From a virus, in the IMG/VR virus record IMGVR_UViG_3300009183_000110, positions 1-57,755 of that record: DNA of 57,755 nt; one strand, 5' to 3'. Positions within the stretch are counted from its first letter, which is position 1. Every line of letters begins with the position of its first letter. This document shows positions 140-25,971 of the stretch, in pieces. A program made the translations under genes and the position numbers. Below the pieces are notes generated by a model. That model did not search any database. It was not told the origin of the DNA and saw only the letters and a list, made by a program, of their open reading frames with translations.

Positions 140-3100
140 ATGTCTGTCGATGATAATGAGTTCCTTATTCCCATAGAGGAATCCCGTAGAGCGCGCCCTG
201 CCTCAGTAGAGCAGAAAGCGCTTGGAAATAGACTCGCCCGATTAGTCGGTAGCCGACTAGTGGATAGGCCAAGCATTGGCGAAGGAAGACGCCGCCGTGG
301 CGGGATGGACATTGATGCACCGACGGGCGGAGTTCGTGGCTACAGAAAACCCACCCTCAGCAACTTTGACCCCGACAATGACGGCTGGGTAGACGAAGGC
401 TCAACTAATCCACGTTTTATTGGCATAGATTCGCCCACAAGAGGCACTGAGACAGCCAGAAGAATGTCTTCGGGCGCTAACGAGGACTACAGAGGCCAGC
501 ATGGAGCTCCAGAAAGAGGCGCAGGCGCTCCCCTACATGACATGTTGGCAGATGGTGGAGTTTATCCAGAGGACGTCTATTCTGCCGATGCAATACGTTT
601 TTATGGTGTCGGGGATGACCAGCTTGACCCAATAGCCGCCAGCCTGATTAAGCAATACAAAGGCAAGCCAAATGCCGAGGTGACTATTTATCGTGCGGTG
701 CCTCTTTCAAACAGTAAAAAGATAGAAAAACTAGAAAAACAACTCGCCAGATATATGGCGCGTGGCAAACTTCCAGAAGGAACCAGCAGAAGTATCGAAC
801 CTAGCGATTGGTCTCAGGGTGTTCGAGACGAAATAGAGAGACTAAAGAATCTTCCACCAGACGACATGAAGATAACCCCCGGTGACTGGGTTACCCCAAT
901 TCGAGAGTACGCAGTTATGCACGGCGATGGAGCACTGCGTGGCGAATATCAAATCATAAAGAAGCGAGTCAAGGCTAAGGATATTTATACAGCCGGCGAC
1001 TCTTGGCTTGAATGGGGCTACGACCCAGAAGTAACCAAAAAACTTTCTAGTGGTACCGAAATAAATAATGCCGATATATCCGCAGCTTATACGCAGGAAA
1101 TATTTGGGAAACTAAGAGCCTTGAAAGAACGACTCGGTTACGGCACGAACTTTGAAGAAAAAGTAAGCAAAGAAAAACTCGATACAAGAATAAAAGAAAC
1201 AGCAGAGTCCGCCAAGCGTCAAATTGACTATTACTTTAAAAAAGATACAATTCTTCCGCAAGAGGCTATTGATTACATAAACGAAGTAGTAGCAGAAGGA
1301 AAGTTTTTTACTTCGGAGATGACCGGCAGGGATGCCGAGGCAGCGTTTTTCCCCATACAAGCAAGACTTCGTGAGTCTGGAGTATGGGCAAAAGGAGACC
1401 CTATTCCTCCGAGCGTAGCATTAGAAATATCAAGACAGATACATATCGCTAGGGGCGATACTGAAATGGTTGCAAAAATTGACGAGTTTAAAACTTATCT
1501 AAAAACAGCCACCCCAGAACAGTTGAATGCAGACATGAGGAAGGCGTCTGAAGCGTATGGTAAATCTATCGACACACGGGTGCTCGTAAGGACAAGAAGC
1601 ATTGCCTCGTTTATTAAGGGCAATCGCACCATACTCACTCAACATGACAAAGAAGAAAGAGAAGCAGCTGATATTGAGTCTATGAACCTAATAGGCGATG
1701 CTATTACTACCAGTGCCAGACGAAAGGTTGAAGGCAATCTATTAGGTTTACCGTTTGAAGAAGGGGTGGAAGACCCTCCAGAAGTAAGAGAACTTAGACC
1801 ATCATCGGGCTATGTTACTACTTCAAAAACAGCATTAGCACGAGAAGAAAAGTTTAAAAAAATATACGGAGACGACATTAAACTTATGTACGAAGGTCCT
1901 GCAGGAGCAGCACTAGAGGCTTCGCAGAACAGAACACAAAAGTACGGCGATTCACATTTTGTGCTACGACCAGAAGTTGCAGAGCGCACTAGGGTTTTTG
2001 ATGCAGACACAGTTGATATGTCAATGAAAGACAATGCGCCTCTTCAACTCAGTTCACTGGGTGAAGATGGAGTGTTTCTTAGTAGTTTTAGTCCACTTGG
2101 CATACTTTATGACTACAAGACTGGCGACACTTACCCAACACCATCCGGAGCATTTGAGGCTAGTTCCGACAATGGCATATCAGCAAGTTACAAAGAAGCA
2201 TTAGTTCTTGGAAGATTCAAGCCTGAAGAAGTTCAAGCAATAATTGCTACACCAAAAGAGTTTAGAAAAGAGTTGGGAGAACTTAGCAAGGACTACAACG
2301 AGAATAACGAAAGCAATGTGAGTCTCCTGATTGATATGGCGCAATCACGTGATGAACTAATGCGAGAGTATGGCATAGAGGTAGTTCCTAACATTAGGGG
2401 CGGAGTATTTAAAACTGACGATGTTGAGATGTTTAACCCAGCAATGACAGATGTGTGGTTTGACAAAAACTTCGGGGATAAGGGGTTGTCTAAAGAAGAA
2501 ATAATCCCAGATAAATCAACTACGCCATATGAAGCATGGCTAAGAGTTCTGGTCAAGTCCGAAAAACTCCCTGTTATATTTGAATACCGTGGTCCTAGTG
2601 GCAAGAGCGAAGAAGATAAAGATGTTTGGAAGAGAGATGTGCTCAAGGAAGAACTTGCCAGGGTTCTGTCAGTTAAAACCTCACGGGCTCCTGAAGTTGA
2701 CGATTCTCAAGCATTTAACCAGCTTGAGGAACAGATGGGAGACCGCCTATCTAGCGGCAAGGCTCCACGATATCCACGCGAACCAACGCTTGGAGCTTTC
2801 CTTGGTGAAGCAGATTCATACTTTGGCGACTCTAATTCATGGGAAGAGTTCAAGAAGAAATACAACGATGCCGAAATTGTATTTCTCGACTATGAGACAA
2901 CCGGCCTGAATTTTGACGAGTTTGGTAAAGCCACAACCAACGGAAAACCAACACAAATTGGCCTAGTTCGCATGAAAAATGGGGAAGAAATAGGCAGATT
3001 AAATCTGTTTATGAACCCAGAAGAACCACTAGGAGAATGGTCTTTAGCAAATCTTAAAGACGCAGACGGTAATCCGATTACCAATGAATGGCTTGCCACG

Positions 3101-6100
3101 CAAATGCCCATGGCTGAAGCGCATAGACAGGTTGCTGAGTTTATTGGCCCAGACGCAATCATCGGCGTTCAGAACGCAACTTTCGACAAGAACGTTCTTG
3201 ATGATGCTTTACGTGAAAGCGGTATCGATTGGACACCACGCGGTTATTTAGATACTCGCGAAATAAGTTCTCTTACCCTTCCGGTATGGAGCGAAGATAG
3301 CCCAGATGGCCCACATATCGTAAGTAGTAGAGACGGGACAACCAAACCATCCAGCAGCCTTGCCGCCATTACCGAATACCTCGGCGTGGAACTTGGCGAC
3401 GGACATCACAACGCAGACGCTGATGCCTTCGCAACCAGTCAGGTAATGCAAAAGATAATTGATGGTGCTATAGAAAACAACTGGGACACTTCTGTACTTA
3501 GCAGAAAGCGCCGCGATGAAAAACTAAGACTTGAGCGCGAAAAGTTTGACGCCGATGTAAAAAAATTTGAATCAGACAAAGAGTCTTTTGTTGCAGCCCA
3601 GAAAGAAGAGGGAAGCACAAGACTTTCTTCTGGCAGAGAATCAACTCGTTTTACCGTAGCCAGAGGTGGAAATCATGATGACAGTTTCGACCAAACACTC
3701 GAATTTGCCAACCCTGAGCAGGAGAAATTCAAGTATTGGGAACTTTACGAAAAATACAAGCGATACAACAGACTTGAGCCTGCCGAAGATGGTTTTGGAC
3801 AAATAGACAAAGAAGCACAAATTAGAGCACTAAATGAAGCATTCGGACCAGATGTTGATACTTGGGCAAAAGCACTTGAAATACTAAATGTCAGAAGAAA
3901 ACGTTTCAAAGAAGATGAAGCCTATAAAGAAGAACTAAAGCTAGAGCACATAAAACGATATGGGTACCTGTATAGCCCAGTTTACAAAAACGGCGAGAAA
4001 ACCAAAAAAGCTGTAATAGAAGTATACGACGACGAACTTGCATATAACTCCCTAGACGCATTGATTGGAAAAATAGGAAAGGGTACTGAAGGCCAGACAA
4101 AGGCTGTTAATAAAGTAAAAAAAGTCTTAGAAGGCCTCGAAGAATCAAACAAGCTTAAAAACAGAGCATTCAAACTTGAACATAATCCAGACGGTAGCGG
4201 ACTGTCTTATGTTCTTATGGATTTTGACGCAGAATTGAGTCGTCAAAAATCGGAAGAGATGGCCCGCTTGCGAGAAATATACAAAGCAGAAGGAATGTCT
4301 CTTCTTGATGCTATGTATAGGGCTATAGACGAGATAAAGAAAGACGAAAGATTTTCTGATGAAAAAATATACTCAAATCGCAACGAAGGGGAAAGCACAA
4401 GACTCTCTTCTGGCGCAAATGTAGTTGAAGCATTTAATGAACCCACAGAAGTAACCCAGCAAGAAGCTGCCGACATAGGACTAACTAGAGAGTCTTTAAC
4501 GGGTAAAAAAGTTGCCGAGAGAATAATTAAAAAAATAGAAGAAACGACAGGAAAAGAACTAACAAAACAACAGAAATATTCTATTGAAGATGCTATTCCC
4601 GGCTTGACCAAAGAAATTGCTGGGAAAACACTACTTGACGTTGAAGTGGACAATGCGTTTTCCGAAACCGGAAAACAGCTACTTGAATCAATATCGATTG
4701 ATATTTCTTCAGACGGAATTCCGTTTGTTTCCGCTGACCCGATACCTCAATTGGCAGAACAGATACCGGACAAACGAGACTGGCGTACCGTCGAGTTGCC
4801 TAAGCGTGATGACGTTATTTCAATACTTGATGAAGCAATGAAAGATACGGTTGTTTTCAATGGTTCCGTATGGAAAGATTCCGACGGAAACATTATTGCA
4901 AGAAAAATATACAAAAACGACGCTTCTACTTTAGAATTTGAAAACGACGAGGCGAGGGAAAGATTCCCCCTGTTGGAAATGTTGGCTCCAAAAGGATTTG
5001 TCATCAGGAGCGACAGTATTGGTTTGCCAGCATTAACTCAAGATACATTGCCGGAACCGTATCTTGAAGCGTGGAAAAAACATAGCAAGTTTGTTAGGGA
5101 ACTTACGCGCCGTGCGGGCGAACTAATGGGTGACGAGGAGCTTTTTCTTCCAGGTTCAAGAATCAGCCACAGCACGGATACATATCTTCGTGGCTACATA
5201 GGTGGAATAACTGACCCGCATAAATTCAATATGGGACTCTATGGCAAGGCACTTCAAGACACCCATGACCTATTCGGACATCTCGGAACCGGTAGAGCTT
5301 TTGACCGCCATGGAGAATGGGCAAACGACCTTGCCATGATGTCCCTTGCGGACCACCCAGACTCACCTCTAACGCCTCAAGAAAAAATGGTCGTTAAGCA
5401 TCTTCATTACATGATGTACTCCGCCGAACGAATGCTCAGGGTTGGCAGACTTGACGAGTCCGACCTAAATATGAACGAAACAATGGGCTACCGTAATCGA
5501 CCAAGAACCGTATTCGATATTGAAGGCGTATCTGACTCCGAAACGCGTATATATGCTGGTGATTTTAATTCAGTTATTAAGAAGCTTGATACAGCATCTA
5601 CTAGTGGACGACTGTCTTCTGGAAGCAAGCCAATTTATGAAGCCAACGAAGAAGATATTGAATTAGCTCTTGCGCACGATATTTTGGGAAAGAGCAGCAG
5701 ACCCTCACTTGCTTCAGGGCAGGAACGTCCGTCTATACAAATTAGACCAGATTCCCCCCAAAGACCAATAATAGAAATTGGTCGCAACGAGCGCGAACTT
5801 CTAAGAGAACACAGAGCCAAGGATTACAAGTACGGCGACAAGAGCGTGCTTGGCGGCGAGATAAGAAAGACTACAAATACATGGCTAAGAGGTCTCAGCT
5901 CTGAACAAATGGCTAAGGTTTTGGTTCCTTCAAATCGTGAAGAACATTTTCAAATGTGGCTCGACGACTACGCTGGCGCTGATGTTGTAGACCCTGCTAC
6001 TAGATTAAAATTTCAGAAATACTATGATGATTTTCATCAAAAAAACCCTTGGGATACCCCGGACTTCTCACCAGACAACGTAAAAGCCATGCAAGAACTC

Positions 6101-9100
6101 CTGGCACAATCCATTGAAGATAACCCACAAATGAAGTGGGCTTTTGAAAACCACGGAGCTCCTTCTTTCTCCTTCATGGACCCAGAAGGCATAGCAGCCT
6201 ATGAAGCAATACCAGAAGTGCGCGAGAAATTTGCAGCGATTGCAAAGCAACGCAACGACGGTAAGCCGGTTAGGGCAAGAGGAAGAATGAGTCCAAACAT
6301 GGACACCGTCTATCTCAACAAAGAGGTGTTTCTTGAAGCATTGGATGACTCAATACCGTCAGTAACCAAAAGCACTCTTCGATGGAATGGTCAGTCCCCA
6401 GTAAAAGGACAGAAGTCAATAGAAAACTCCCTTGCAGGAACGCTGCTTCACGAATGGGGTCACTGGCTGCACTTCAAGGCCATAGCTGACTCTGAGGGCG
6501 GACCAAAGACAACAATTCATACACGTCAAAGATACGGCAGCAAAGACAAGGGCAACACAAACTATGCTCGTGCACTTGCTGTTGCTTCTGAATTTAATAA
6601 ATTTACATATGACCAAGACAGAATAACAATGTTTGAAAACGATGTTCCGTTTTCTGAAACTCCAGACGTTCCTCGTTTGCTCACTTCATACGGAAACGTC
6701 AACATGGCAGAAACCATGGCTGAGGGCATTGTCGCCGTACTGCATCCAGACGAAAAAATACAAAATGAAATGATTAGTCCTTCCTTGAAGAAAGCTGTAA
6801 CAACCTTGCTTGGCGGAAACGACACCTATCAGCCATGGCGTGATGGCGACAGGGCTGGTCGGATTCTTTCATCTGGGCGTTCCCCTGGAGTAAGAGACGA
6901 ACGTCGCGGAAGACTAGAAAGTGCTCTTTCGGAAATAGAAGGTTTGCGCCGTTCTAGAATAACGGAAACTTCTATTCCTCAATCAAGAGATACGCAGTGG
7001 AAAAAAGCACAGATTGCCAAGTTTGTTCCAATACCGACAACTCGTAAGCCTTACTCGCCAACAAAACCTGCTGACGAAAAAGACGTCTTGCAGATGTTTA
7101 TTGACGATGCGGTTTCTATTCCTGGAACATACGATATTGATTCTAGTCTTGCTGCTCCAAAAATTAAAAGAGAGATTTCTAAAAAAATAGCAGAATCTAT
7201 GGATTTTACTCCTCAAGATTTTGTAAAAATGTTTCAGACTTCAATGCCTGGAAGCGGAGTTGGTTTTGCTGATGACGAGAATTTTAGAGACGTATCACTC
7301 ATCCTTAACAGAACACTCGAAGGAGTGCGCGATGGAAGTAAGTTTTTTTACAATCCCAAAAAAGGCTCGGTAGCTTCGGGAATAGATTTCAGTGTAGAAC
7401 AGCGCGTTCTCAAAATATGGAACGAATCTTTTATTCCTAAACTTGAATCACTGACTGCTGGTGAGCTTTTTGATAAATCAAGCATGTGGGACATGTATGA
7501 AAAAACCATGGATGATTATTCAATAGGCTCCATAGGTCCAACTGAAATGCGCCGCTGGTCCGGAGACCATATAACTGCAATAAAAACTCAGTTGTATTAC
7601 TTTGACATGTGGGGGAATAGGGAAACACGTCAAAGAAGAGAAGGCAATCCCGAAAATGACTACCTGGGCATATACAGGCTAAAAGACGGAACCTTAATAT
7701 CAATAGATTCATATTCTCTTATGAATAGTCCGGATGACTGGGAACAGATACTGCAAAAAGGCTACGGAATAAAGAAAGGTACTGATTACAAAGACTTGTC
7801 TGAATTGATGGTCGCCAAAATTGACAAAAATACGCCGGACGACGCAAAAGACCTAGAAGTATTAAAAGAACTAACTATACAAAATATTAAAAAAGTAATA
7901 CCTAGTCCTGAAGAATTGTTGAAAAGCCGTGGTCTTGTAGAGTTTGACGCCAATACCCCAGAAGGGCAAGGGGTTCTGAAGCAGGCGTTAATATCAGGAT
8001 TGGTTCATACATGGGCTATATCAGCAAACGACTCCAACGACGTTGCGTTATCAATGCAGAACGTAGCCAGAGAACTGTTCTCCGTAGACGGTGCTGTTGG
8101 TTGGGACCGAGGAAATCAATATAGGATGGACAGAGTTGTTGCATCCCCTGGCCCAGGACAGATTATGGAAGACTTCGATGGTGCTCCAGTCCTGAGCGAA
8201 ATGCAAAGAAAATTTGTTGGAGAATTCCTGCAAACATCTCATGAAGCAACGCAGCAGTATTTCGAAGACAGAGGGATAACACATCTTGCTGTATACAGAG
8301 GAATTACTGCTGGTGAAAATGCGTTTGGAGAACCAATAGCCATAGGCGATATGGATATACGTGAAGTACGTATGAGGCCACTTTCGTCTTGGTCAATCAA
8401 TGAAGCTACAGCCAGGTCGTTCAGTAGAAGACCAGGTAATGACCAAAGTGGATACGTCATAAAGGCTTTTGTGCCAATTAAAGATATTTTTTCTACTCCA
8501 TTTACTGGCTTTGGGTGTCTAGAAGAAGATGAAACAGTAATACTAGGCCGACCGATGCAGGCGATGGTTTTCAGAGTTGATGAAGCAACACGATACAGCG
8601 CAGACGGAGAGTCACTTGCTACAAAATTAGTTGACGTTGATAGAGACTCAATGGCTAAACAAATCGAGGCCAAGAAGCTTTCATCTGGAGAAACAGACGT
8701 ATTGGAAAAACCAACTCCGTACAAAGCTGATACCCGATTTAATACTTCTTACGAGAAAGAAAAACTAGACGAACAATCTTCCTATATGAGAAGATTTACT
8801 CAGGCCTTGGAGCATTATAATAAAACTGGCGACTGGCTTGGCGGAGACTTTGACGTTGTGGTTGCTTCAGATAAAAACATGAATGCTCCGACCATACATT
8901 CATCGGAAGCTCAAGCAAAAAACTTACTAAAAGCAGACATAGTGACGCGAGCTGAAGATGCGTTTACTGCAAGACATGAGTCGTGGACTAGATATCCGGG
9001 AAGCGACAAGGAACCCGAACGTGATTCTTTTGTTAAAAACTGGATTAAGAAATTTGAAGACGATATTAATGAAAAGTCAAGACTTTTAAAAGAAGAAGTA

Positions 9101-12100
9101 GCCTTGCTGCAATATAAACATGATAGCAAGAAGATAAGAATTGAACAAAACGTACTTGACCTAGAAGATATAACTCCAGAAGAGTACGATGACCTACTTA
9201 AAGAAACACGAGAGATATTAGAACTCAAACAAAATGATAGAGATAAATACTGGGAACTATTCGGTAATGGCGCTTCAGATGGAGAAAAATTCTTAATACA
9301 TCAAGGCTCATCAGAACTTGATGGCGGAGTCCTTAACCCTAAAAAAACTGTTGGTTCTGACGGTTTTAATGTTGCTTCTGCTGACACAAAAGCTCTTAAC
9401 AATATCAACGTCGCTGATGTAAAAGCTAGAAATAATCAAATAGAAAAACAAATTGAAGAATTAAAAAAGTTTATTGAATCAGCTTCTACTGATGGGACAA
9501 TACACGCTGGGAACTACAACAGAAATTCACTTGGATTGTTGTCTAGTAACCTATCTCAAGAATTTCGTCAGAATAGTCCAGACCAAGTAATAGACCTCGC
9601 TGCTAGAGGGTGGGATGTTGCTCACTTCATATCGGAAGCACATAAAAGAATTGCAGGACTTGAGAATGAACAAGTCGATGTAAAGTCTGTCATCAAGGCC
9701 CTCGAGGAAGCGGACAATCAGTTCTTGAGCGCACTCATGACTGGAGAAGAATTGGCCGGGGGGTATTTTGGTAGATACGCGCATCGAATAATCCCTAAAC
9801 ACATAGCAGAAAATCTTTCGAGAGATTGGGATTTCGAGAACAGAGGCAAAGACTTAAAAGTACATGACAGTGTAATGATGCAAAGATGGCAGTACGCCAT
9901 GCGTGGAACGCAGTGGATTATTGGTGGAGAACAACACAAACACTGGACCAACAAGCTTGGACCTGGTTATGAAAAACAAATAATCGGCATGCAGAGACCT
10001 TTTGTTGGATTCTCTTCCGTTACTCTTGATGAAGGCAGGAATAGACTGTATGCGATAACACCCGCACTTATTGTTAGAGCTATTAAAAACTATAAACAGG
10101 GCAACAAGAAAGTGGACTTATCAACACTGGTAAAACCTCGCTCCATTTCCGGAACAGAAGTACTGCAGCCTGATGAATTAAATCAAGAACTGCGCATGTC
10201 GTCCGGTAAGAAAAAAGTAGTAGAGAGCGTTATGAATGCAAACTACTACGGCATAGTTTCAGCAAGACATATTGAACACACATCTAAAGATGGAAACGAA
10301 ACTAGCTACTGGGTAGTTCTTGATGCTGGTGGAACCATAACTGCTTATGATACTGGAAGCGTAAATGACGCTAGACAAAAACTTTCCGAAAGCTGGACAA
10401 AACTTGGTTTCAATCCGATGACTGATAAAAAAGGGCCAGTTCCTATTGAAGAAGTAAACGTCTTAGATGCCCTAAAGCGAATGGAAGACTCCAAGAATTC
10501 GATAGGACTGATGACGACCATAAAGTGGAACGAGGATGACCACAGCGAAATCCTAAGGACTGGCGTAGCCAGAACCCGCAGACGTACGGGAATAGCATCA
10601 GAAATGATGCGCCTTCACAGGGATACATGGCCTGAACAGAACCTTCAACACTCTGATGCATTATCCCCGGATGGCAGAGCTTTTGCCGCTTCCGCCACTC
10701 CGGAAGTTCTTGACGGACAAAGAGAATCGGTTGGGAAAAACGCTGGAAAAAAGCTTTCGTCCGGACTAACCGAGCACGTAAGTAACGAACACGCCAAAGC
10801 CCTTGTTGCTGCCTATCCAAGGTCACTGAAGGAACCAACCGAAGATATTGCTATCGCAAGAAAAGAAGGAAGACCAGTATCTTGGCTTCTGGACGAAACT
10901 ATAGACCCTAAAATAGGTGCTGTTATTGGTGAACTAATTGATGGTGTACTCGATGACCCTCGTTTTAAAAAAGCATTCGACGGAGAAGAAATTAACCCAT
11001 TCCTACTAGAAACTTCAAAGGGGCCATGGGCACGTATTAGAGAGAGGTCTCCATTCAGTGAACGCATCGGTCCAGCAATTGACAAAATAACAGGAATAGT
11101 TTTATCTAGAGACCCTCAAATGATGGAATGGGATGCTGAAACCATTGCCAAAGGCTTGGTTCTTCGTGCCGGGATACACATAACACGCGCTAAGTATCTA
11201 GAAAATGAACGTAAAAAAATAATAATGTCCGCGGACATGCGTGTTAGAGGTACCGTTGAAGACTTGGTAAGCGAATACGATAAATACGCAAAAGAACTCG
11301 TTGGCATGGGTGGAGATTATTTCCAGCCAGGGCCAATGGATTATAATCGCGTAGTCGTTGCTGTAGACAAAGAAGCAATAAGCGGTCTTATAAAAAACAA
11401 AAAACTTCTTAGTCAGTTTGAAACAGGCAGAAGCAATGGACATTACAATCCTCAAGCTAGACAGCAAGCGGAAGTAACACTGTTTGGATATCCACCAGAT
11501 ATGGCTCCAGAATTCAGACCAATCTATGGAATGGCTGCATATGGTGGAGTAACTGAAGAAGTGGCTGGTTCTGGTCAGCAGTACGGCAACTACCTATTAG
11601 TCCTCAAGCCAGGAAATGAAGACAGAACAACCGTAACAGAATCAGACTCCCTCAGCTTAATGGGAACAACGTCAGCAATGAACTCTCCTGATATAAACAT
11701 GATGATGTTGAGAAACGCTGGAGAAAAAGACACTTTCGACTATCCAGTCGAAGCACAGGTACATCCCGGCGAGGGCGGAATTTCGCTAGACGATATTGCC
11801 TACATCATAGTAAGGGATGATTACACCGGAGAAAACCCAGACGAAGGAGAAAAACTTCAAGCGCTATCAAGACGTCTAGGCATACCTGCGGTTTCTGAAT
11901 ACGACATAGACTACGGCGGTACCCCTGGCGCATTCGATGAAGATTACATACTCAATGCTGGAGGAGAACAGGCAGGAGATTCCTCTCCTGAATCCACGCG
12001 ATTAAGTAGCGGCAGGTCAAATAGGAGGCTTCGCAAAGGCCGTCCAGGAGCAAAACCTCGCAGCGACGCTGAATATGTTGCTTATTCTGCAAATGAATTA

Positions 12101-12892
12101 TCAATCAGAGCCGTTCCGTCTTCCCCTGAAGAGCTTGCATCAATATTGAGAAGTTCTCCGCACACAAAGAATTCAAACAAGAGTATTAGAAAAATTAATA
12201 AACTCATTGAAGAACTAGAAATTAATTGGGATAAACAAAAAGAACTTCAGAAAAAAGTTGAATTGACACTAAGCAATTCACCATCATTGAGAAACATGCT
12301 CGGAAGATTTGACATACCACCAATGCTTCTAACTGACTTTGGGCTCAAGCAAGGGTTTATTTTTGAATCCGACCTAGAGCCAACTAACTGGTACGCCGGA
12401 GGCGGGGTATACACACCGTCTTATGGCTTCATAGCATTCCCAGACAAAGTCCTTAAGGACTATATTCCGGGGACAAACCTTACCGGAGAGTACGTAATAC
12501 GTCACGAACTTGGACACGCAATCCACGCTATGGCTAAAAAGACAAATAAAGCTGCATTCAAACGTGAATCAGAAGATTTAGATGGAATCTATAAAGAACT
12601 AAAAGCCGCCACCTCGTGGGCAAAAGACGAACTAAAAGCCGGAAGAAGTAGTTCCGAAATTGAAGACGAACTTTCCTCAATGGTAAACATGCTTTCAGAA
12701 TACGATTCATCACTAGCTAAGCAAATAAGCGATTACGCTGCAACCAACAGGGCGGAATACATAGCGGAAGCAATAGCTTACGCTACGGCTCCAGCAAACG
12801 AAGGACTAAGAAGGCTCAAAGCAGAGCACTACGATATGCTTTCAGAGTTCCTTGGATTAACCGTAGAAGAACTAAAGACGATGGGATTATAG
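140..12892 (+). CDS. Giant multidomain polyvalent protein (ART, exonuclease, zincin, GNAT modules)
   Basis: 4,250 residues, no signal peptide or membrane segment. Modules in order: a DPDNDG Ca-binding-like loop (about 75-85); an ART-like domain (YR184-185, GDWVTP 248-253, EWGYDP 291-296); an unassigned region 306-868; a DnaQ/RNase T-type DEDDh exonuclease (D917, E919, H1090, D1095); a mostly helical unassigned region 1166-1420; a domain with HDLFGH at 1709-1714; a zincin (HEWGH 2104-2108, E2195); a VIP2-like ART (YRG 2719-2721, SSWS 2749-2752, ExE 2796-2798); an unassigned region 2851-3350; a GNAT-like segment (RRRTGIA about 3480-3486); a DUF3626-like segment (SQFETG from 3758); and a C-terminal zincin (HELGH 4122-4126, E4206/E4210). 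Eleven SSG linkers separate the segments. This resembles phage polyvalent proteins thought to be delivered with DNA and processed in the host; that role is inference. Confidence 0.88.
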   Translation: MSVDDNEFLIPIEESRRARPASVEQKALGNRLARLVGSRLVDRPSIGEGRRRRGGMDIDAPTGGVRGYRKPTLSNFDPDNDGWVDEGSTNPRFIGIDSPTRGTETARRMSSGANEDYRGQHGAPERGAGAPLHDMLADGGVYPEDVYSADAIRFYGVGDDQLDPIAASLIKQYKGKPNAEVTIYRAVPLSNSKKIEKLEKQLARYMARGKLPEGTSRSIEPSDWSQGVRDEIERLKNLPPDDMKITPGDWVTPIREYAVMHGDGALRGEYQIIKKRVKAKDIYTAGDSWLEWGYDPEVTKKLSSGTEINNADISAAYTQEIFGKLRALKERLGYGTNFEEKVSKEKLDTRIKETAESAKRQIDYYFKKDTILPQEAIDYINEVVAEGKFFTSEMTGRDAEAAFFPIQARLRESGVWAKGDPIPPSVALEISRQIHIARGDTEMVAKIDEFKTYLKTATPEQLNADMRKASEAYGKSIDTRVLVRTRSIASFIKGNRTILTQHDKEEREAADIESMNLIGDAITTSARRKVEGNLLGLPFEEGVEDPPEVRELRPSSGYVTTSKTALAREEKFKKIYGDDIKLMYEGPAGAALEASQNRTQKYGDSHFVLRPEVAERTRVFDADTVDMSMKDNAPLQLSSLGEDGVFLSSFSPLGILYDYKTGDTYPTPSGAFEASSDNGISASYKEALVLGRFKPEEVQAIIATPKEFRKELGELSKDYNENNESNVSLLIDMAQSRDELMREYGIEVVPNIRGGVFKTDDVEMFNPAMTDVWFDKNFGDKGLSKEEIIPDKSTTPYEAWLRVLVKSEKLPVIFEYRGPSGKSEEDKDVWKRDVLKEELARVLSVKTSRAPEVDDSQAFNQLEEQMGDRLSSGKAPRYPREPTLGAFLGEADSYFGDSNSWEEFKKKYNDAEIVFLDYETTGLNFDEFGKATTNGKPTQIGLVRMKNGEEIGRLNLFMNPEEPLGEWSLANLKDADGNPITNEWLATQMPMAEAHRQVAEFIGPDAIIGVQNATFDKNVLDDALRESGIDWTPRGYLDTREISSLTLPVWSEDSPDGPHIVSSRDGTTKPSSSLAAITEYLGVELGDGHHNADADAFATSQVMQKIIDGAIENNWDTSVLSRKRRDEKLRLEREKFDADVKKFESDKESFVAAQKEEGSTRLSSGRESTRFTVARGGNHDDSFDQTLEFANPEQEKFKYWELYEKYKRYNRLEPAEDGFGQIDKEAQIRALNEAFGPDVDTWAKALEILNVRRKRFKEDEAYKEELKLEHIKRYGYLYSPVYKNGEKTKKAVIEVYDDELAYNSLDALIGKIGKGTEGQTKAVNKVKKVLEGLEESNKLKNRAFKLEHNPDGSGLSYVLMDFDAELSRQKSEEMARLREIYKAEGMSLLDAMYRAIDEIKKDERFSDEKIYSNRNEGESTRLSSGANVVEAFNEPTEVTQQEAADIGLTRESLTGKKVAERIIKKIEETTGKELTKQQKYSIEDAIPGLTKEIAGKTLLDVEVDNAFSETGKQLLESISIDISSDGIPFVSADPIPQLAEQIPDKRDWRTVELPKRDDVISILDEAMKDTVVFNGSVWKDSDGNIIARKIYKNDASTLEFENDEARERFPLLEMLAPKGFVIRSDSIGLPALTQDTLPEPYLEAWKKHSKFVRELTRRAGELMGDEELFLPGSRISHSTDTYLRGYIGGITDPHKFNMGLYGKALQDTHDLFGHLGTGRAFDRHGEWANDLAMMSLADHPDSPLTPQEKMVVKHLHYMMYSAERMLRVGRLDESDLNMNETMGYRNRPRTVFDIEGVSDSETRIYAGDFNSVIKKLDTASTSGRLSSGSKPIYEANEEDIELALAHDILGKSSRPSLASGQERPSIQIRPDSPQRPIIEIGRNERELLREHRAKDYKYGDKSVLGGEIRKTTNTWLRGLSSEQMAKVLVPSNREEHFQMWLDDYAGADVVDPATRLKFQKYYDDFHQKNPWDTPDFSPDNVKAMQELLAQSIEDNPQMKWAFENHGAPSFSFMDPEGIAAYEAIPEVREKFAAIAKQRNDGKPVRARGRMSPNMDTVYLNKEVFLEALDDSIPSVTKSTLRWNGQSPVKGQKSIENSLAGTLLHEWGHWLHFKAIADSEGGPKTTIHTRQRYGSKDKGNTNYARALAVASEFNKFTYDQDRITMFENDVPFSETPDVPRLLTSYGNVNMAETMAEGIVAVLHPDEKIQNEMISPSLKKAVTTLLGGNDTYQPWRDGDRAGRILSSGRSPGVRDERRGRLESALSEIEGLRRSRITETSIPQSRDTQWKKAQIAKFVPIPTTRKPYSPTKPADEKDVLQMFIDDAVSIPGTYDIDSSLAAPKIKREISKKIAESMDFTPQDFVKMFQTSMPGSGVGFADDENFRDVSLILNRTLEGVRDGSKFFYNPKKGSVASGIDFSVEQRVLKIWNESFIPKLESLTAGELFDKSSMWDMYEKTMDDYSIGSIGPTEMRRWSGDHITAIKTQLYYFDMWGNRETRQRREGNPENDYLGIYRLKDGTLISIDSYSLMNSPDDWEQILQKGYGIKKGTDYKDLSELMVAKIDKNTPDDAKDLEVLKELTIQNIKKVIPSPEELLKSRGLVEFDANTPEGQGVLKQALISGLVHTWAISANDSNDVALSMQNVARELFSVDGAVGWDRGNQYRMDRVVASPGPGQIMEDFDGAPVLSEMQRKFVGEFLQTSHEATQQYFEDRGITHLAVYRGITAGENAFGEPIAIGDMDIREVRMRPLSSWSINEATARSFSRRPGNDQSGYVIKAFVPIKDIFSTPFTGFGCLEEDETVILGRPMQAMVFRVDEATRYSADGESLATKLVDVDRDSMAKQIEAKKLSSGETDVLEKPTPYKADTRFNTSYEKEKLDEQSSYMRRFTQALEHYNKTGDWLGGDFDVVVASDKNMNAPTIHSSEAQAKNLLKADIVTRAEDAFTARHESWTRYPGSDKEPERDSFVKNWIKKFEDDINEKSRLLKEEVALLQYKHDSKKIRIEQNVLDLEDITPEEYDDLLKETREILELKQNDRDKYWELFGNGASDGEKFLIHQGSSELDGGVLNPKKTVGSDGFNVASADTKALNNINVADVKARNNQIEKQIEELKKFIESASTDGTIHAGNYNRNSLGLLSSNLSQEFRQNSPDQVIDLAARGWDVAHFISEAHKRIAGLENEQVDVKSVIKALEEADNQFLSALMTGEELAGGYFGRYAHRIIPKHIAENLSRDWDFENRGKDLKVHDSVMMQRWQYAMRGTQWIIGGEQHKHWTNKLGPGYEKQIIGMQRPFVGFSSVTLDEGRNRLYAITPALIVRAIKNYKQGNKKVDLSTLVKPRSISGTEVLQPDELNQELRMSSGKKKVVESVMNANYYGIVSARHIEHTSKDGNETSYWVVLDAGGTITAYDTGSVNDARQKLSESWTKLGFNPMTDKKGPVPIEEVNVLDALKRMEDSKNSIGLMTTIKWNEDDHSEILRTGVARTRRRTGIASEMMRLHRDTWPEQNLQHSDALSPDGRAFAASATPEVLDGQRESVGKNAGKKLSSGLTEHVSNEHAKALVAAYPRSLKEPTEDIAIARKEGRPVSWLLDETIDPKIGAVIGELIDGVLDDPRFKKAFDGEEINPFLLETSKGPWARIRERSPFSERIGPAIDKITGIVLSRDPQMMEWDAETIAKGLVLRAGIHITRAKYLENERKKIIMSADMRVRGTVEDLVSEYDKYAKELVGMGGDYFQPGPMDYNRVVVAVDKEAISGLIKNKKLLSQFETGRSNGHYNPQARQQAEVTLFGYPPDMAPEFRPIYGMAAYGGVTEEVAGSGQQYGNYLLVLKPGNEDRTTVTESDSLSLMGTTSAMNSPDINMMMLRNAGEKDTFDYPVEAQVHPGEGGISLDDIAYIIVRDDYTGENPDEGEKLQALSRRLGIPAVSEYDIDYGGTPGAFDEDYILNAGGEQAGDSSPESTRLSSGRSNRRLRKGRPGAKPRSDAEYVAYSANELSIRAVPSSPEELASILRSSPHTKNSNKSIRKINKLIEELEINWDKQKELQKKVELTLSNSPSLRNMLGRFDIPPMLLTDFGLKQGFIFESDLEPTNWYAGGGVYTPSYGFIAFPDKVLKDYIPGTNLTGEYVIRHELGHAIHAMAKKTNKAAFKRESEDLDGIYKELKAATSWAKDELKAGRSSSEIEDELSSMVNMLSEYDSSLAKQISDYAATNRAEYIAEAIAYATAPANEGLRRLKAEHYDMLSEFLGLTVEELKTMGL

Positions 12893-17533: not shown

Positions 17534-18535
17534 TTAGTTACTGCCTGAATTACTAGCCCAGTGATGAGCCCCACCGTTATTAAACAAGTAACGAGCAACC
17601 TTTAAATTGCACTTGCTATTCAACAACACTTTTAGGTCGCCAAACTTAGAACCGCACACTTGTGCAGTCACTGTTTTCCATGAGCTATTAATCTGCAGTA
17701 AGCCGTAATCTCTTGTGCCGTTACTGTTTAATTTAGACACAACCTTTTCGGTGCATCTACTTTCACGCCACATAATATAAGAAAACCTATCTACTGGAAC
17801 AAGGCCATTTGCGCGTAACTGAGCTTCCCATTTGGGGCACCTTTTAGTTTTGTCACTTGAGTGACTAACCGTGGATGACACGCTTGATTTACTAACGCTT
17901 CCCGAGGGAACAGAACTCTTTGTTTCACTACTAGGGCGCGTCTTTAACCACTCAGTCATTCCGGCTTCGGTGTATCTATCTCGCGTAGGTTTGCGGGTCT
18001 TCCAGTTAACACATGTCCTACCCCAGTTACTAGAGTTACGCCAACCAACGGCTGGGCGAAAGAAAGGCCTGTTGTTCAGCTTGTCATCAAGCGTACGAAA
18101 TACATTTCTTGTTTGATATCCAAAAAACGCCATACGGTTCGCAACAATAATCTGCTCTTCCTTGGTTGCCTTAGGTGGACGGGAAGCAAACTGACGTCCG
18201 CCATATCCCTCCCAGACAGACTGAGCCATTCCCAAACCGCCAGAGAAATATCCACCGTTTTCCCAGTTGTGGTTAGTCTCACACCAGGAGACAGCCTCCC
18301 AGAACTTGATGGAACCACCCTTTTTAGAACGTAGCTGAACCACTAGTTCGGGATGCATTGTGCTGACAGCCATCACGTTCACCTTGTTCTGCACAGCAGG
18401 GTTGATTACGGAAACCGCTGAGGTACTCGTTGTTGAACTATCACCCCCAGTCTTGACGCCCGCAGCGTCAACAACACTTACGGAAACGCAAGATGTAATT
18501 AAAAGGGATGTTAGGAAACGACGGTACTTAGACAA
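17534..18535 (-). CDS. Secreted lysin with Rpf-like and lysozyme-like domains
   Basis: 333 residues. N-terminal signal peptide (RRFLTSLLITSCVSVSVVDAA). Residues about 75-140 match resuscitation-promoting-factor transglycosylase: FWEAVSWCETNHNW (catalytic Glu86), GGLGMAQSVWEGYGG, ATKEEQIIVANRM. After a Ser/Thr-rich linker, residues about 232-333 look like a second lysozyme/SLT fold with MWRESRC (Glu258) and DYGLLQINSSW. Start is TTG with AGGAGA about 8 bases upstream. Rpf domains are actinobacterial, supporting the host assignment. Likely cleaves peptidoglycan at lysis or entry; export by Sec is inferred. Confidence 0.85.
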   Translation of the reverse strand: MSKYRRFLTSLLITSCVSVSVVDAAGVKTGGDSSTTSTSAVSVINPAVQNKVNVMAVSTMHPELVVQLRSKKGGSIKFWEAVSWCETNHNWENGGYFSGGLGMAQSVWEGYGGRQFASRPPKATKEEQIIVANRMAFFGYQTRNVFRTLDDKLNNRPFFRPAVGWRNSSNWGRTCVNWKTRKPTRDRYTEAGMTEWLKTRPSSETKSSVPSGSVSKSSVSSTVSHSSDKTKRCPKWEAQLRANGLVPVDRFSYIMWRESRCTEKVVSKLNSNGTRDYGLLQINSSWKTVTAQVCGSKFGDLKVLLNSKCNLKVARYLFNNGGAHHWASNSGSN

Positions 18536-23481: not shown

Positions 23482-23937
23482 ATGGACAACAATAGTGATA
23501 ATGAACGTTTCTATGACTTCGACTCAGAAGACGACGATGCCCCAACCACTGAAGAGTTAGCGGTATGGCTATCGGACTTCATGTCTCAATCAAGTAAGGC
23601 AGAAAAGATGTACCGGTCACACTTCTGCTCTATCGTTGTCAATCGTCTCTGGAAAGAGTTCGGCGTTGAAGGCATGTGTGAATTGATGCTCGCTATCGAT
23701 AAGCGTGCTGGGTGGATTTCAGACATAATCCTTGAGGATGCTGACCTTCATGATGCCCTCTTTGATAACCACGGGGTGTTCGACGACGATGCTGTCATAA
23801 AGGCACGTATGAGTAACCGCCTAATGGAGATGAACAAGAAGATTTGGCGCTTACGGAGAAAATACTCCAAGCTAATAGCCGCAGAAATCGTCAATGGCGT
23901 CGATACTAACGAGTCAGAAGACGCTCCAAAGCCCTAG
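23482..23937 (+). CDS. Acidic hypothetical protein, 151 aa
   Basis: Acidic N-terminus (DFDSEDDDAPTTEEL) followed by a helical body with a basic patch (KKIWRLRRKYSKLI). Its stop overlaps the stop of the convergent helicase gene by 4 bases. No family recognised. Confidence 0.65.
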   Translation: MDNNSDNERFYDFDSEDDDAPTTEELAVWLSDFMSQSSKAEKMYRSHFCSIVVNRLWKEFGVEGMCELMLAIDKRAGWISDIILEDADLHDALFDNHGVFDDDAVIKARMSNRLMEMNKKIWRLRRKYSKLIAAEIVNGVDTNESEDAPKP

Positions 23938-25853
23938 CGAGCCCTATCAAATAGGCCCATAATCATCTGTACGGTGCCATTTACGCTAGATACTTCGCCA
24001 CCTTCTACGGCTGCATCGACTACGGAACGCTTTTTATCTATTAAATCGTAAATATCTTCATCGATTGTTCCGGCTGCTAATAGATAAGTCGCCGTCACGC
24101 TGCCCTTTTGTCCCAGTCTGTGCAATCTGCTGTAAGTTTGGTCTACGTCCGCGGGTGTCCACGGGAGTTCCACGAACAGACAGTTCTCCGAAGCAGTCAA
24201 CGTGTGTCCGGTCTTTGCTGCCTGCATCGACAAAACGATTACGGGTGCCTTGTCGACGCCTAACTCTTGGAACTTCTTCTTGTTTAGTTCGACTTCCTCT
24301 ACGGACATCCCTCCTTGGATACGTAGATTGCCGTACTTATTAGACAACTCGTCGACTATCTCTCTGTGGTGAGCAGCAATCACTACCTTCTTGCCGTCCT
24401 CTAGGTGCGCATCAACCCATTCGTGTACGGAATCCATCTTCGCTTTGGCAGCAAGTCTTCTAAGTATGGACAACCGAACGAGGTGTTCATTGGCTTCGGC
24501 TCTAATCATTGCAGCCATCGCTGCTTTGTGAGACGGCTCGCCTCGTTCTATAGCAAGTTGCCGTGCGCGTTCAGCGATGTAGAACAAGATGTCCTTTTCT
24601 GCCTTGACATACTCCTTCATTCCGGCCGAGCTTCCTTCGACGACAAGCCGGCTATGGACTACGGGTGGCAACTCGGAAAGAACTTGGTCTTTTGTTCGGC
24701 GTATGTAACACGCTCCACGTAGTCTGTCGTTGAGTTCATCTAAGTGAGAGTTCCCACTGATGTTCCATTGACCAAACGAGTCTTGATACGCAGCACAATA
24801 ACGCCGGTAGAAACCCCACAACCCACCGAACTCTTTGAGTCTTCCGAGTATCTCGAGTTGTGAAGCGTATTCGTTTGGCCGGTTGGTCACGGGTGTTCCG
24901 GTAAGACAGAGAACAAGACCTTCCTTCGGAGCACTACGGGCTATCTTGACTGCTGCCTTGGTTCGTTGTGCAGTAGGCGTCTTACAATAGTGACTCTCGT
25001 CGAAAATGTACGAGCGATGTCCGGTGAGCCTCTTCTCCCAGTGAGGGATGTTGCTGTAACCAACGATGACAACGTCATATGTTTCTTCATCTGGAAACAC
25101 TTTCCTATTCGTTACGGTAGTTACTCGTCTCTCGGGTAACCACTTATTCCACTCCTTAGCCCAGTTAAGTACAAGGCTCGGTGGGCATACAACTACTACC
25201 GGATACGAATCCATTACGTACTCAACAGTGCATATTGCCTGAATTGTCTTTCCAAGACCCATCTCGTCTGCGATGAATGTTCTACGAGCGTTGGCTGCAT
25301 ACTGCACACCGGCTCTTTGATACGGAAGCAAATCACCCTGCAACTTATCTATTGCTATGACTGCATCAGTAGAGCGAGATGCTTCGATGAGTTGATTAGT
25401 CTTTTCTTCTACATGGGTTGCTTCGACCATGATTTCGTTATCAACCGTAACGTTAAACATTCCAGCCCACGCAATTACGTTCTTGACTGATGACATGGGT
25501 GCAGTCCACGCTCGTTGTTCCCCATCCCAAGACACTGCGGGTATTTGCTTGATTGCTTTAATGGCCACGCGCTCGTACGGGTAACGAATACTGATACTGC
25601 CGGCGTTTATCCATACACGAGCAGCAGATGGCTTCTTGTCTTGAGGAACAGTGAACTTCATTACATCAACGGTTACATCAAACCCGTGCTTGAGTGCGAA
25701 GTCTCTTCCTTCGGTTACAGAGGTGATAGGTAGTCGCCACAATTTCGTAAGCTTGTCCCAGCGAGCACCGGAGATTGCTTTGAGTTCATTCACTTGCTCT
25801 TTATCGAACGGAAAGTCAAGAACTATCTCGTCGTTGTCTAAATAAAGTCGCAT
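23934..25853 (-). CDS. SNF2/SMARCAL1-like helicase
   Basis: 639 residues from the ATG preceded by AGGG (an upstream GTG adds five). Residues about 1-150 hold two repeats like the HARP domain of annealing helicases (FPFDKEQVNELKAISGARWD... WRLPITS; SWDGEQRAWTAPMSS). The SNF2 ATPase follows: MGLGKTIQAI (Walker A about 199-203), FDESH (about 285-288), LTGTPVTNRPNE; the C-terminal lobe has VIVLSMQAAKTGHTLTAS and SRLHRLGQKGSVTATYLLAAGTIDEDIY. Such proteins remodel DNA at forks or help phage replication. Motif A (24080) lies antisense here, encoding TYLL. Confidence 0.88.
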   Translation of the reverse strand: MRLYLDNDEIVLDFPFDKEQVNELKAISGARWDKLTKLWRLPITSVTEGRDFALKHGFDVTVDVMKFTVPQDKKPSAARVWINAGSISIRYPYERVAIKAIKQIPAVSWDGEQRAWTAPMSSVKNVIAWAGMFNVTVDNEIMVEATHVEEKTNQLIEASRSTDAVIAIDKLQGDLLPYQRAGVQYAANARRTFIADEMGLGKTIQAICTVEYVMDSYPVVVVCPPSLVLNWAKEWNKWLPERRVTTVTNRKVFPDEETYDVVIVGYSNIPHWEKRLTGHRSYIFDESHYCKTPTAQRTKAAVKIARSAPKEGLVLCLTGTPVTNRPNEYASQLEILGRLKEFGGLWGFYRRYCAAYQDSFGQWNISGNSHLDELNDRLRGACYIRRTKDQVLSELPPVVHSRLVVEGSSAGMKEYVKAEKDILFYIAERARQLAIERGEPSHKAAMAAMIRAEANEHLVRLSILRRLAAKAKMDSVHEWVDAHLEDGKKVVIAAHHREIVDELSNKYGNLRIQGGMSVEEVELNKKKFQELGVDKAPVIVLSMQAAKTGHTLTASENCLFVELPWTPADVDQTYSRLHRLGQKGSVTATYLLAAGTIDEDIYDLIDKKRSVVDAAVEGGEVSSVNGTVQMIMGLFDRAR

Positions 25854-25971
25854 ACTGTGAGCCCTCACCCCTTACAAGATAAAAGGCTAGCGAGACATGC
25901 ACGTGAAGGGGGTACCGAAAGGAGAAACGGAAGCACATGTCCCACTAGCCATAATTTATCCTACACTGCGT

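Follow-up and report, generated by a model that had tools for sequence, protein, structure and literature searches.

A protein of 4,250 amino acids (aa) in which many effector-like domains are encoded in one chain raises the question of whether that chain acts as a whole or is a precursor of smaller proteins. The protein is encoded within positions 1–57,755 of the IMG/VR virus record IMGVR_UViG_3300009183_000110, a stretch of 57,755 nucleotides that is referred to below as the window. Its open reading frame (ORF), here called P3, is intact and runs uninterrupted from 140 to 12892 on the plus strand. An identical ORF was found in two other IMG/VR records, namely L002 and a 158,714 bp genome (L001, here G001; IMGVR_UViG_3300027969_000001), where it occupies 79459–92211 on the minus strand. 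P3 is therefore not an artefact of one contig, and the window represents part of a larger phage genome. The G001 phage encodes a tail sheath and also WhiB (Pfam E 3e-13), which points to an actinobacterial host, and the source of P3 is best explained as a tailed actinobacterial phage of freshwater type. We propose, with a probability of roughly 0.6, that P3 is a capsid-destined effector polyprotein that is cut at its linkers by the phage's own Peptidase_S78 and whose pieces are injected together with the genome.

P3 carries 11 copies of the motif [RK]-(I)-[LM]SSG, that is [LM]SSG preceded by a basic residue, with an I in between in one copy. From the composition of P3, 0.14 occurrences of LSSG are expected. 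The copies read R-MSSG at aa 109 (464–475) and aa 3353 (10196–10207), K-LSSG at aa 302 (1043–1054), aa 2847 (8678–8689) and aa 3539 (10754–10765), R-I-LSSG at aa 2243 (6866–6877), and R-LSSG at aa 870 (2747–2758), aa 1162 (3623–3634), aa 1422 (4403–4414), aa 1825 (5612–5623) and aa 3955 (12002–12013), all on the plus strand of the window. Numbered from the N-terminus, these 11 sites split P3 into 12 segments (S0 to S11) of 108 to 604 aa each. Every domain that was detected is contained within one segment and none is cut by a site. The codons of the motif vary from copy to copy, from which it follows that selection acts on the protein; DNA-level repeats or recombination signals were rejected as the source of the motif on the same account. 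In AlphaFold models of aa 1815–2860 and aa 3330–4250, all six of the sites covered (sites 6 to 11) fell in blocks of low predicted local distance difference test score (pLDDT, roughly 26 to 57) between better-ordered domains. As the overall quality of the models is modest (mean pLDDT 67.7 and 64.3, respectively), this is taken as supporting evidence only. A candidate twelfth site, RPSSG at aa 554, was discarded, as alignment and hhalign identify it as the RPxSG conserved in the DUF3626-like family to which that part of P3 belongs.

The spelling of the motif differs from phage to phage. Capsid relatives of this phage number more than 400 in IMG/VR. For 18 further records, the short word most enriched in the giant ORFs was determined free of assumptions. 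Depending on the phage, this word was RLSSG, RFSSG, GLSSG, SLSSG, ISGRM, GFAS(R)/GFASR, GLAS or RGMAS(R), with RFSSG in G022, GLSSG in G023 and ISGRM in G016. In 16 genomes, ORFs of 900 aa and above contained roughly 240 occurrences of the respective dialect motif as opposed to 3 in all smaller ORFs, and the motif was absent from every ordinary-sized head protein. Separate giant ORFs of one genome share their spelling; their identity over positions -1 and 0 was 1.35 out of 2 compared with 0.643 ± 0.018 when sites were shuffled among genomes. Unlinked ORFs were furthermore seen to change spelling together, as were homologous junctions, the counterpart of site 4 reading LISGRM in G016. At 229 homologous junctions between genomes of differing dialect, similarity to unrelated sites of the same genome was 4.33 out of 6 versus 3.65 out of 6 to the homologue, and 173 of the 229 followed this pattern; no p-value is attached to the comparison as the junction pairs are not independent of each other. 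The pattern across junctions and ORFs is that expected from a trans-acting reader co-evolving with many sites. One genome, G018, was at first taken to have a giant ORF without sites, which was rejected since a looser [IV][ST]GxM is present at its homologous junctions. In the relatives G025, G028 and G029 no clear linker motif was found, and these phages may do without polyprotein processing or may use a looser motif.

The segments delimited by the sites move between phages. Of the ends of homology between polyproteins, 36.7% lay no more than 30 aa from a site, compared with 13.7 ± 1.8% for shifted sites. Segment order varies from genome to genome, with the leader followed by S8, S3, S1 and then S6 in G007 and with the order S3, S9, S1, S4 in G024. 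Homologues of S1 (464–1042) in G007, G024 and G038 begin at sites of their own, S4 (3623–4402) recurs at aa 2350–2599 of the G024 protein, and the similarity of S3 to G014 spans aa 871–1165, between sites 870 and 1162. The clearest case is S5 (4403–5611), in which 96.7% DNA identity to G014 is confined to aa 1423 to 1851 (4403–5654 of the window). The left break coincides with site 5 at aa 1422 and the right break lies 3 aa from G014's own site 1814, while the cassettes that flank S5 in G014 show little or no DNA similarity. S5 is thus a recent exchange with breakpoints at site motifs.

The same sites recur in two companion polyproteins of the head module. In G001, P1 (3,381 aa; 120118–130263, minus strand) comes after the portal gene and is itself followed by an acidic protein and then P2 (2,672 aa), with a separate capsid gene nearby (Pfam Phage_capsid E 8e-41), and both P1 and P2 are punctuated by the same [KR]LSSG sites as P3. 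The N-terminus of P1 is a prohead protease (Peptidase_S78 E 3e-8, phrog_80 E 2e-23), fused to the hallmark polyvalent domains ArdC-N (ArdcN E 9e-13) and MPTase-PolyVal (E 6e-35) and to two helicase regions, an AAA helicase and a UvrD helicase; the zincins of P3 are of other kinds than the MPTase. A head maturation protease is thus encoded in the head module, in the same operon. The same gene plan was observed in the relatives G007, G008, G010, G011 and G014, and the protease-bearing frame reaches up to 4,905 aa in relatives. P1 and P3 also have a leader in common in G001, G007, G008, G010 and G011, identified by a D-x-D-x-DGWxDEGT loop. In P3 this is S0, of 108 aa (140–463), for which no Pfam match was obtained and whose hidden Markov model matched in 23 records. 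The leader may be a prohead-targeting or calcium-binding element. The loop (FDPDNDGWVDEGS) is dockerin- or EF-hand-like, both in 140–463 of the window and at roughly aa 555–625 of P1 in G001.

Which protease reads the sites was approached by comparing dialect distance with gene divergence. Peptidase_S78 was found in 18 of the 18 motif-bearing genomes compared, and its divergence correlated with dialect distance at r 0.82, the highest value among 13 gene families, with partial correlations of 0.76 given the major capsid protein (MCP) and 0.69 given the portal. Several observations weigh against S78 as the reader and against the proposal as a whole. The primase and one other head-module gene (r 0.78 each) track dialect almost as well as S78 does. 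The MCP, which S78 proteases normally cut, does not share the motif; in LSSG phages L[ST]S precedes its mature N-terminus, but the ISGRM and GFAS groups show no counterpart, and RFSSG phages retain the L. In G016, G017 and G018 the protease is encoded in an ORF that is not a giant polyprotein. What is shown directly is the motif, its punctuation of the chains, the concerted spelling, the shuffling of cassettes and the presence of S78 in the same operon; that the chains are cut, by which protease, and that they are packaged and injected are steps that we infer. The MCP delta-domain boundary was likewise considered as proof that S78 reads the motif and was not upheld, LSS being kept in RFSSG phages and absent from the ISGRM and GFAS groups. 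S78 is accordingly the best candidate reader on account of its top correlation with dialect, not a proven one given the near-ties and an MCP that is devoid of the motif outside LSSG phages.

The same sites could be cut by another phage protease, either the zincin of P2 or a zincin within the polyproteins, and this we regard as unlikely. Zincins occur in P1, P2 and P3, the P2 zincin follows dialect as well as S78 does across the 15 genomes that have it, and autoprocessing by MPTase domains has been proposed by Iyer et al. 2017 (PMC5512222). Yet the P2 zincin family was not detected in G016, G017 and G018, the ISGRM group, all of which carry dialect sites, and several genomes that bear the motif lack the S6 and S11 zincin families.

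Concerted spelling requires only a reader that acts in trans and no cut, so that the motif might instead be a docking or packaging tag bound by a capsid or scaffold protein, the chain acting whole. A precedent for the latter is the N4 virion RNA polymerase, which PMC5512222 describes as packaged unprocessed despite its MPTase domain. However, packaging should not need eleven tags, one at almost every boundary between the domains of a chain, the ordinary-sized head proteins are all without the motif, and P1 and P3 already have a candidate packaging signal in the leader that they share, which makes a tag rather improbable. Processing by a host protease, with each dialect mirroring the host of the phage, would account for differing spellings through differing hosts; it is nevertheless very improbable, as spelling closely follows the phage's S78 and the S78-bearing polyprotein carries the same sites. 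That the motif is a functionless flexible spacer spread by recombination would fit its location in low-pLDDT linkers and the shuffling of cassettes, but is hardly credible given that codons vary between copies, that homologous junctions keep a site rewritten to the dialect of each phage and that the motif is nearly confined to giant ORFs.

Cleavage by Peptidase_S78 is therefore the reading we retain for P3. According to this proposal the leader shared with P1 probably directs P3 into the prohead; the head-operon location and this leader hint that P3 may be packaged. It would be cut at the [RK](I)[LM]SSG linkers, probably to some 12 proteins including the exonuclease, one or more ADP-ribosyltransferases (ARTs), zincins, an acetyltransferase and others. 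The cutter would most likely be the head-maturation protease that the phage itself encodes directly after the portal gene, as the N-terminal part of P1. By the precedent of polyvalent proteins, the freed proteins would be injected alongside the genome and be active in the newly infected host. Protease and sites would co-evolve, which on this proposal explains why spelling differs from one phage to the next, and cassettes of effectors would be exchanged between phages as units bounded by sites. In this uncultured actinobacterial clade at large, we lean towards the view that much of the head-packaged arsenal takes the form of several protease-processed polyproteins with a private code read by the maturation protease of each phage, and that cassettes moving between phages are rewritten to the code of the recipient, as in a modular effector system.

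The domain content of P3 was assessed segment by segment, all on the plus strand of the window. An earlier note, made from the sequence alone, had described P3 as a polyvalent protein with a DEDDh exonuclease, two ART-type domains, a DUF3626-like segment, two HExxH zincins and a GNAT, and much of this was borne out. S3 (2747–3622) is a DEDDh 3'-5' exonuclease cassette with homologues in 24 records (Pfam RNase_T E 1.3e-9 at aa 914–1102, together with NCBIfam DEDD models of the PolC/DinG exonuclease type). The two zincins lie in S6 (5612–6865; HEWGH, aa 2104, at 6449–6463; 25 records) and S11 (12002–12889; HELGH, aa 4122, at 12503–12517), and in both the HExxH is placed on a predicted zincin fold that matches M34-type metallopeptidases (Z 9.1 and roughly 8). 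S10 (10754–12001) contains DUF3626 within aa 3539–3954 (Pfam PF12294, E 1.4e-8, 34.5 bits against a cut-off of 27), and its predicted model resembles ART folds (SopF Z 9.1, DarT Z 6.1), in line with the relatedness to ARTs that had been suggested.

As for the ARTs themselves, S7 (6866–8677) has the R, SS and E-x-E of the R-S-E class in its C-terminal part (YRG ... SSW ... E-x-E, at roughly aa 2590–2830), with R, SSW and E-x-E invariant in 8 homologues and with weak fold matches to Vis, VIP2 and ExoS (Z around 5). The second ART-type domain, at aa 109–301 (S1), is possible but unproven from its sequence; the segment matches phrog_2579, labelled 'ParB C-terminal domain', and the R and [ST] positions are present. 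The GNAT assignment of S9 (10196–10753, aa 3353–3538) held up in part, being weak by sequence (Pfam Acetyltransf_1 E 0.035, below the cut-off) and supported by the model (Z 6–7 to several GNATs). A further DUF3626-like domain had been overlooked at roughly aa 421–848 of S2 (1043–2746; hhalign probability 98%, A3 versus A4). No fold is assigned to S1 or to the cassettes S4, S5 and S8; S5 has the motif HDLFGHxGTGRxFDRHGEW, and S8 (8678–10195; 20 records) has invariant H173, G175, L179 and G182. The fold assignments rest on second looks with VIA-align, as Foldseek alone gave no match to the models at E <= 0.001, and a sequence search of the PDB with the S7, S8 and S10 profiles returned no relatives.

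Exonuclease, ART, DUF3626, two zincins and a GNAT-like segment are thus encoded together, as in a polyvalent protein. The idea of an effector-carrying polyvalent head protein is supported by this domain content, by the head-module relative with ArdC-N and MPTase-PolyVal and by the shared leader, while the motif that punctuates it had gone unnoticed. The 'one chain' is probably only the translation product and the pieces the working proteins, because a linker motif selected at the protein level punctuates it, recurs in the protease ORF and changes in concert between phages. Its size and number of domains, which had been thought unusual, are by themselves not what sets it apart, given the 2 to 15 domains per chain reported in PMC5512222 for polyvalent proteins of phages and conjugative elements, and relatives here that reach 5,254 aa. 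Fold matches say nothing of the targets of the pieces. VIP2-like ARTs of freshwater phages have been proposed to target a eukaryotic grazer (PMC6802176); a bacterial target seems more likely for the ART pieces described here as they are accompanied by ArdC, helicases and an exonuclease. Elsewhere in the window, a 333-aa ORF at 17534–18535 on the minus strand matched a PHROG transglycosylase family (E 4.5e-12), and a 644-aa DNA helicase (phrog_62) is encoded at 23934–25868 on the minus strand, opposite to the neighbouring genes.

Polyvalent proteins, as well as head proteases that cut packaged and ejected proteins at short motifs, are already known. Polyvalent proteins are predicted to be packaged and injected, and processing by embedded peptidases has been proposed (PMC5512222, in the sections drawn on here). 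P3 and its companion P1 resemble them in their many conflict-related domains per chain (ART, GNAT, zincin MPTase, ArdC-N, exonuclease). They differ from the account given in those sections in the repeated cleavage-like motif, the genome-specific dialect and the site-bounded exchange of cassettes. The assemblin-type peptidases described there are C-terminal only, whereas S78 is here N-terminal in one of three co-punctuated polyproteins. In SPN3US (gp245), several head proteins, injected ones among them, are cut by a head protease after the short motif AXE, and in this phage as in T4 and phiKZ the precursors are directed to the prohead by propeptides at their N-termini (PMC10052503). A head protease that cuts several head proteins is common to those phages and, as predicted, to the phages studied here. 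In T4, phiKZ and SPN3US, however, the substrates are products of separate genes that mostly lose an N-terminal propeptide, whereas here dozens of predicted sites part enzymes within giant chains, and the motif varies by phage and is not AXE.

The nearest cultured relatives by capsid protein (45–48% identical) are Brevibacterium phage Cantare and Gordonia phages of Bendigovirus, such as Hanem. In these, a related S78 protease is encoded immediately upstream of the capsid and there are ARTs among the neighbouring genes, but the protease is stand-alone (418/455 aa), the effector genes are separate and a repeated linker motif was not found in them. An operational analogy is with the polyproteins of eukaryotic RNA viruses, in which one translation product with a repeated cleavage motif is processed by a co-evolving protease encoded in a polyprotein, as is predicted here. 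It is an analogy only, since this is a double-stranded DNA tailed phage with unrelated proteases and, as we infer, effectors packaged in the head. In the open-access literature we found no report of phage polyproteins or of a repeated, phage-specific punctuation motif.

If cleavage is confirmed, polyprotein processing on the scale of RNA viruses would take place in tailed phages. Giant phage proteins would then work as strings of separable enzymes and not as machines. The sites allow the giant proteins of this clade in metagenomes to be parsed into functional units, and the proteases and site dialects found in nature allow a direct test of how protease and substrate co-evolve. A set of orthogonal proteases, each specific to its site, could also come from these phages, and the cassettes could form a catalogue of uncharacterised units that are likely to act against bacterial defences.
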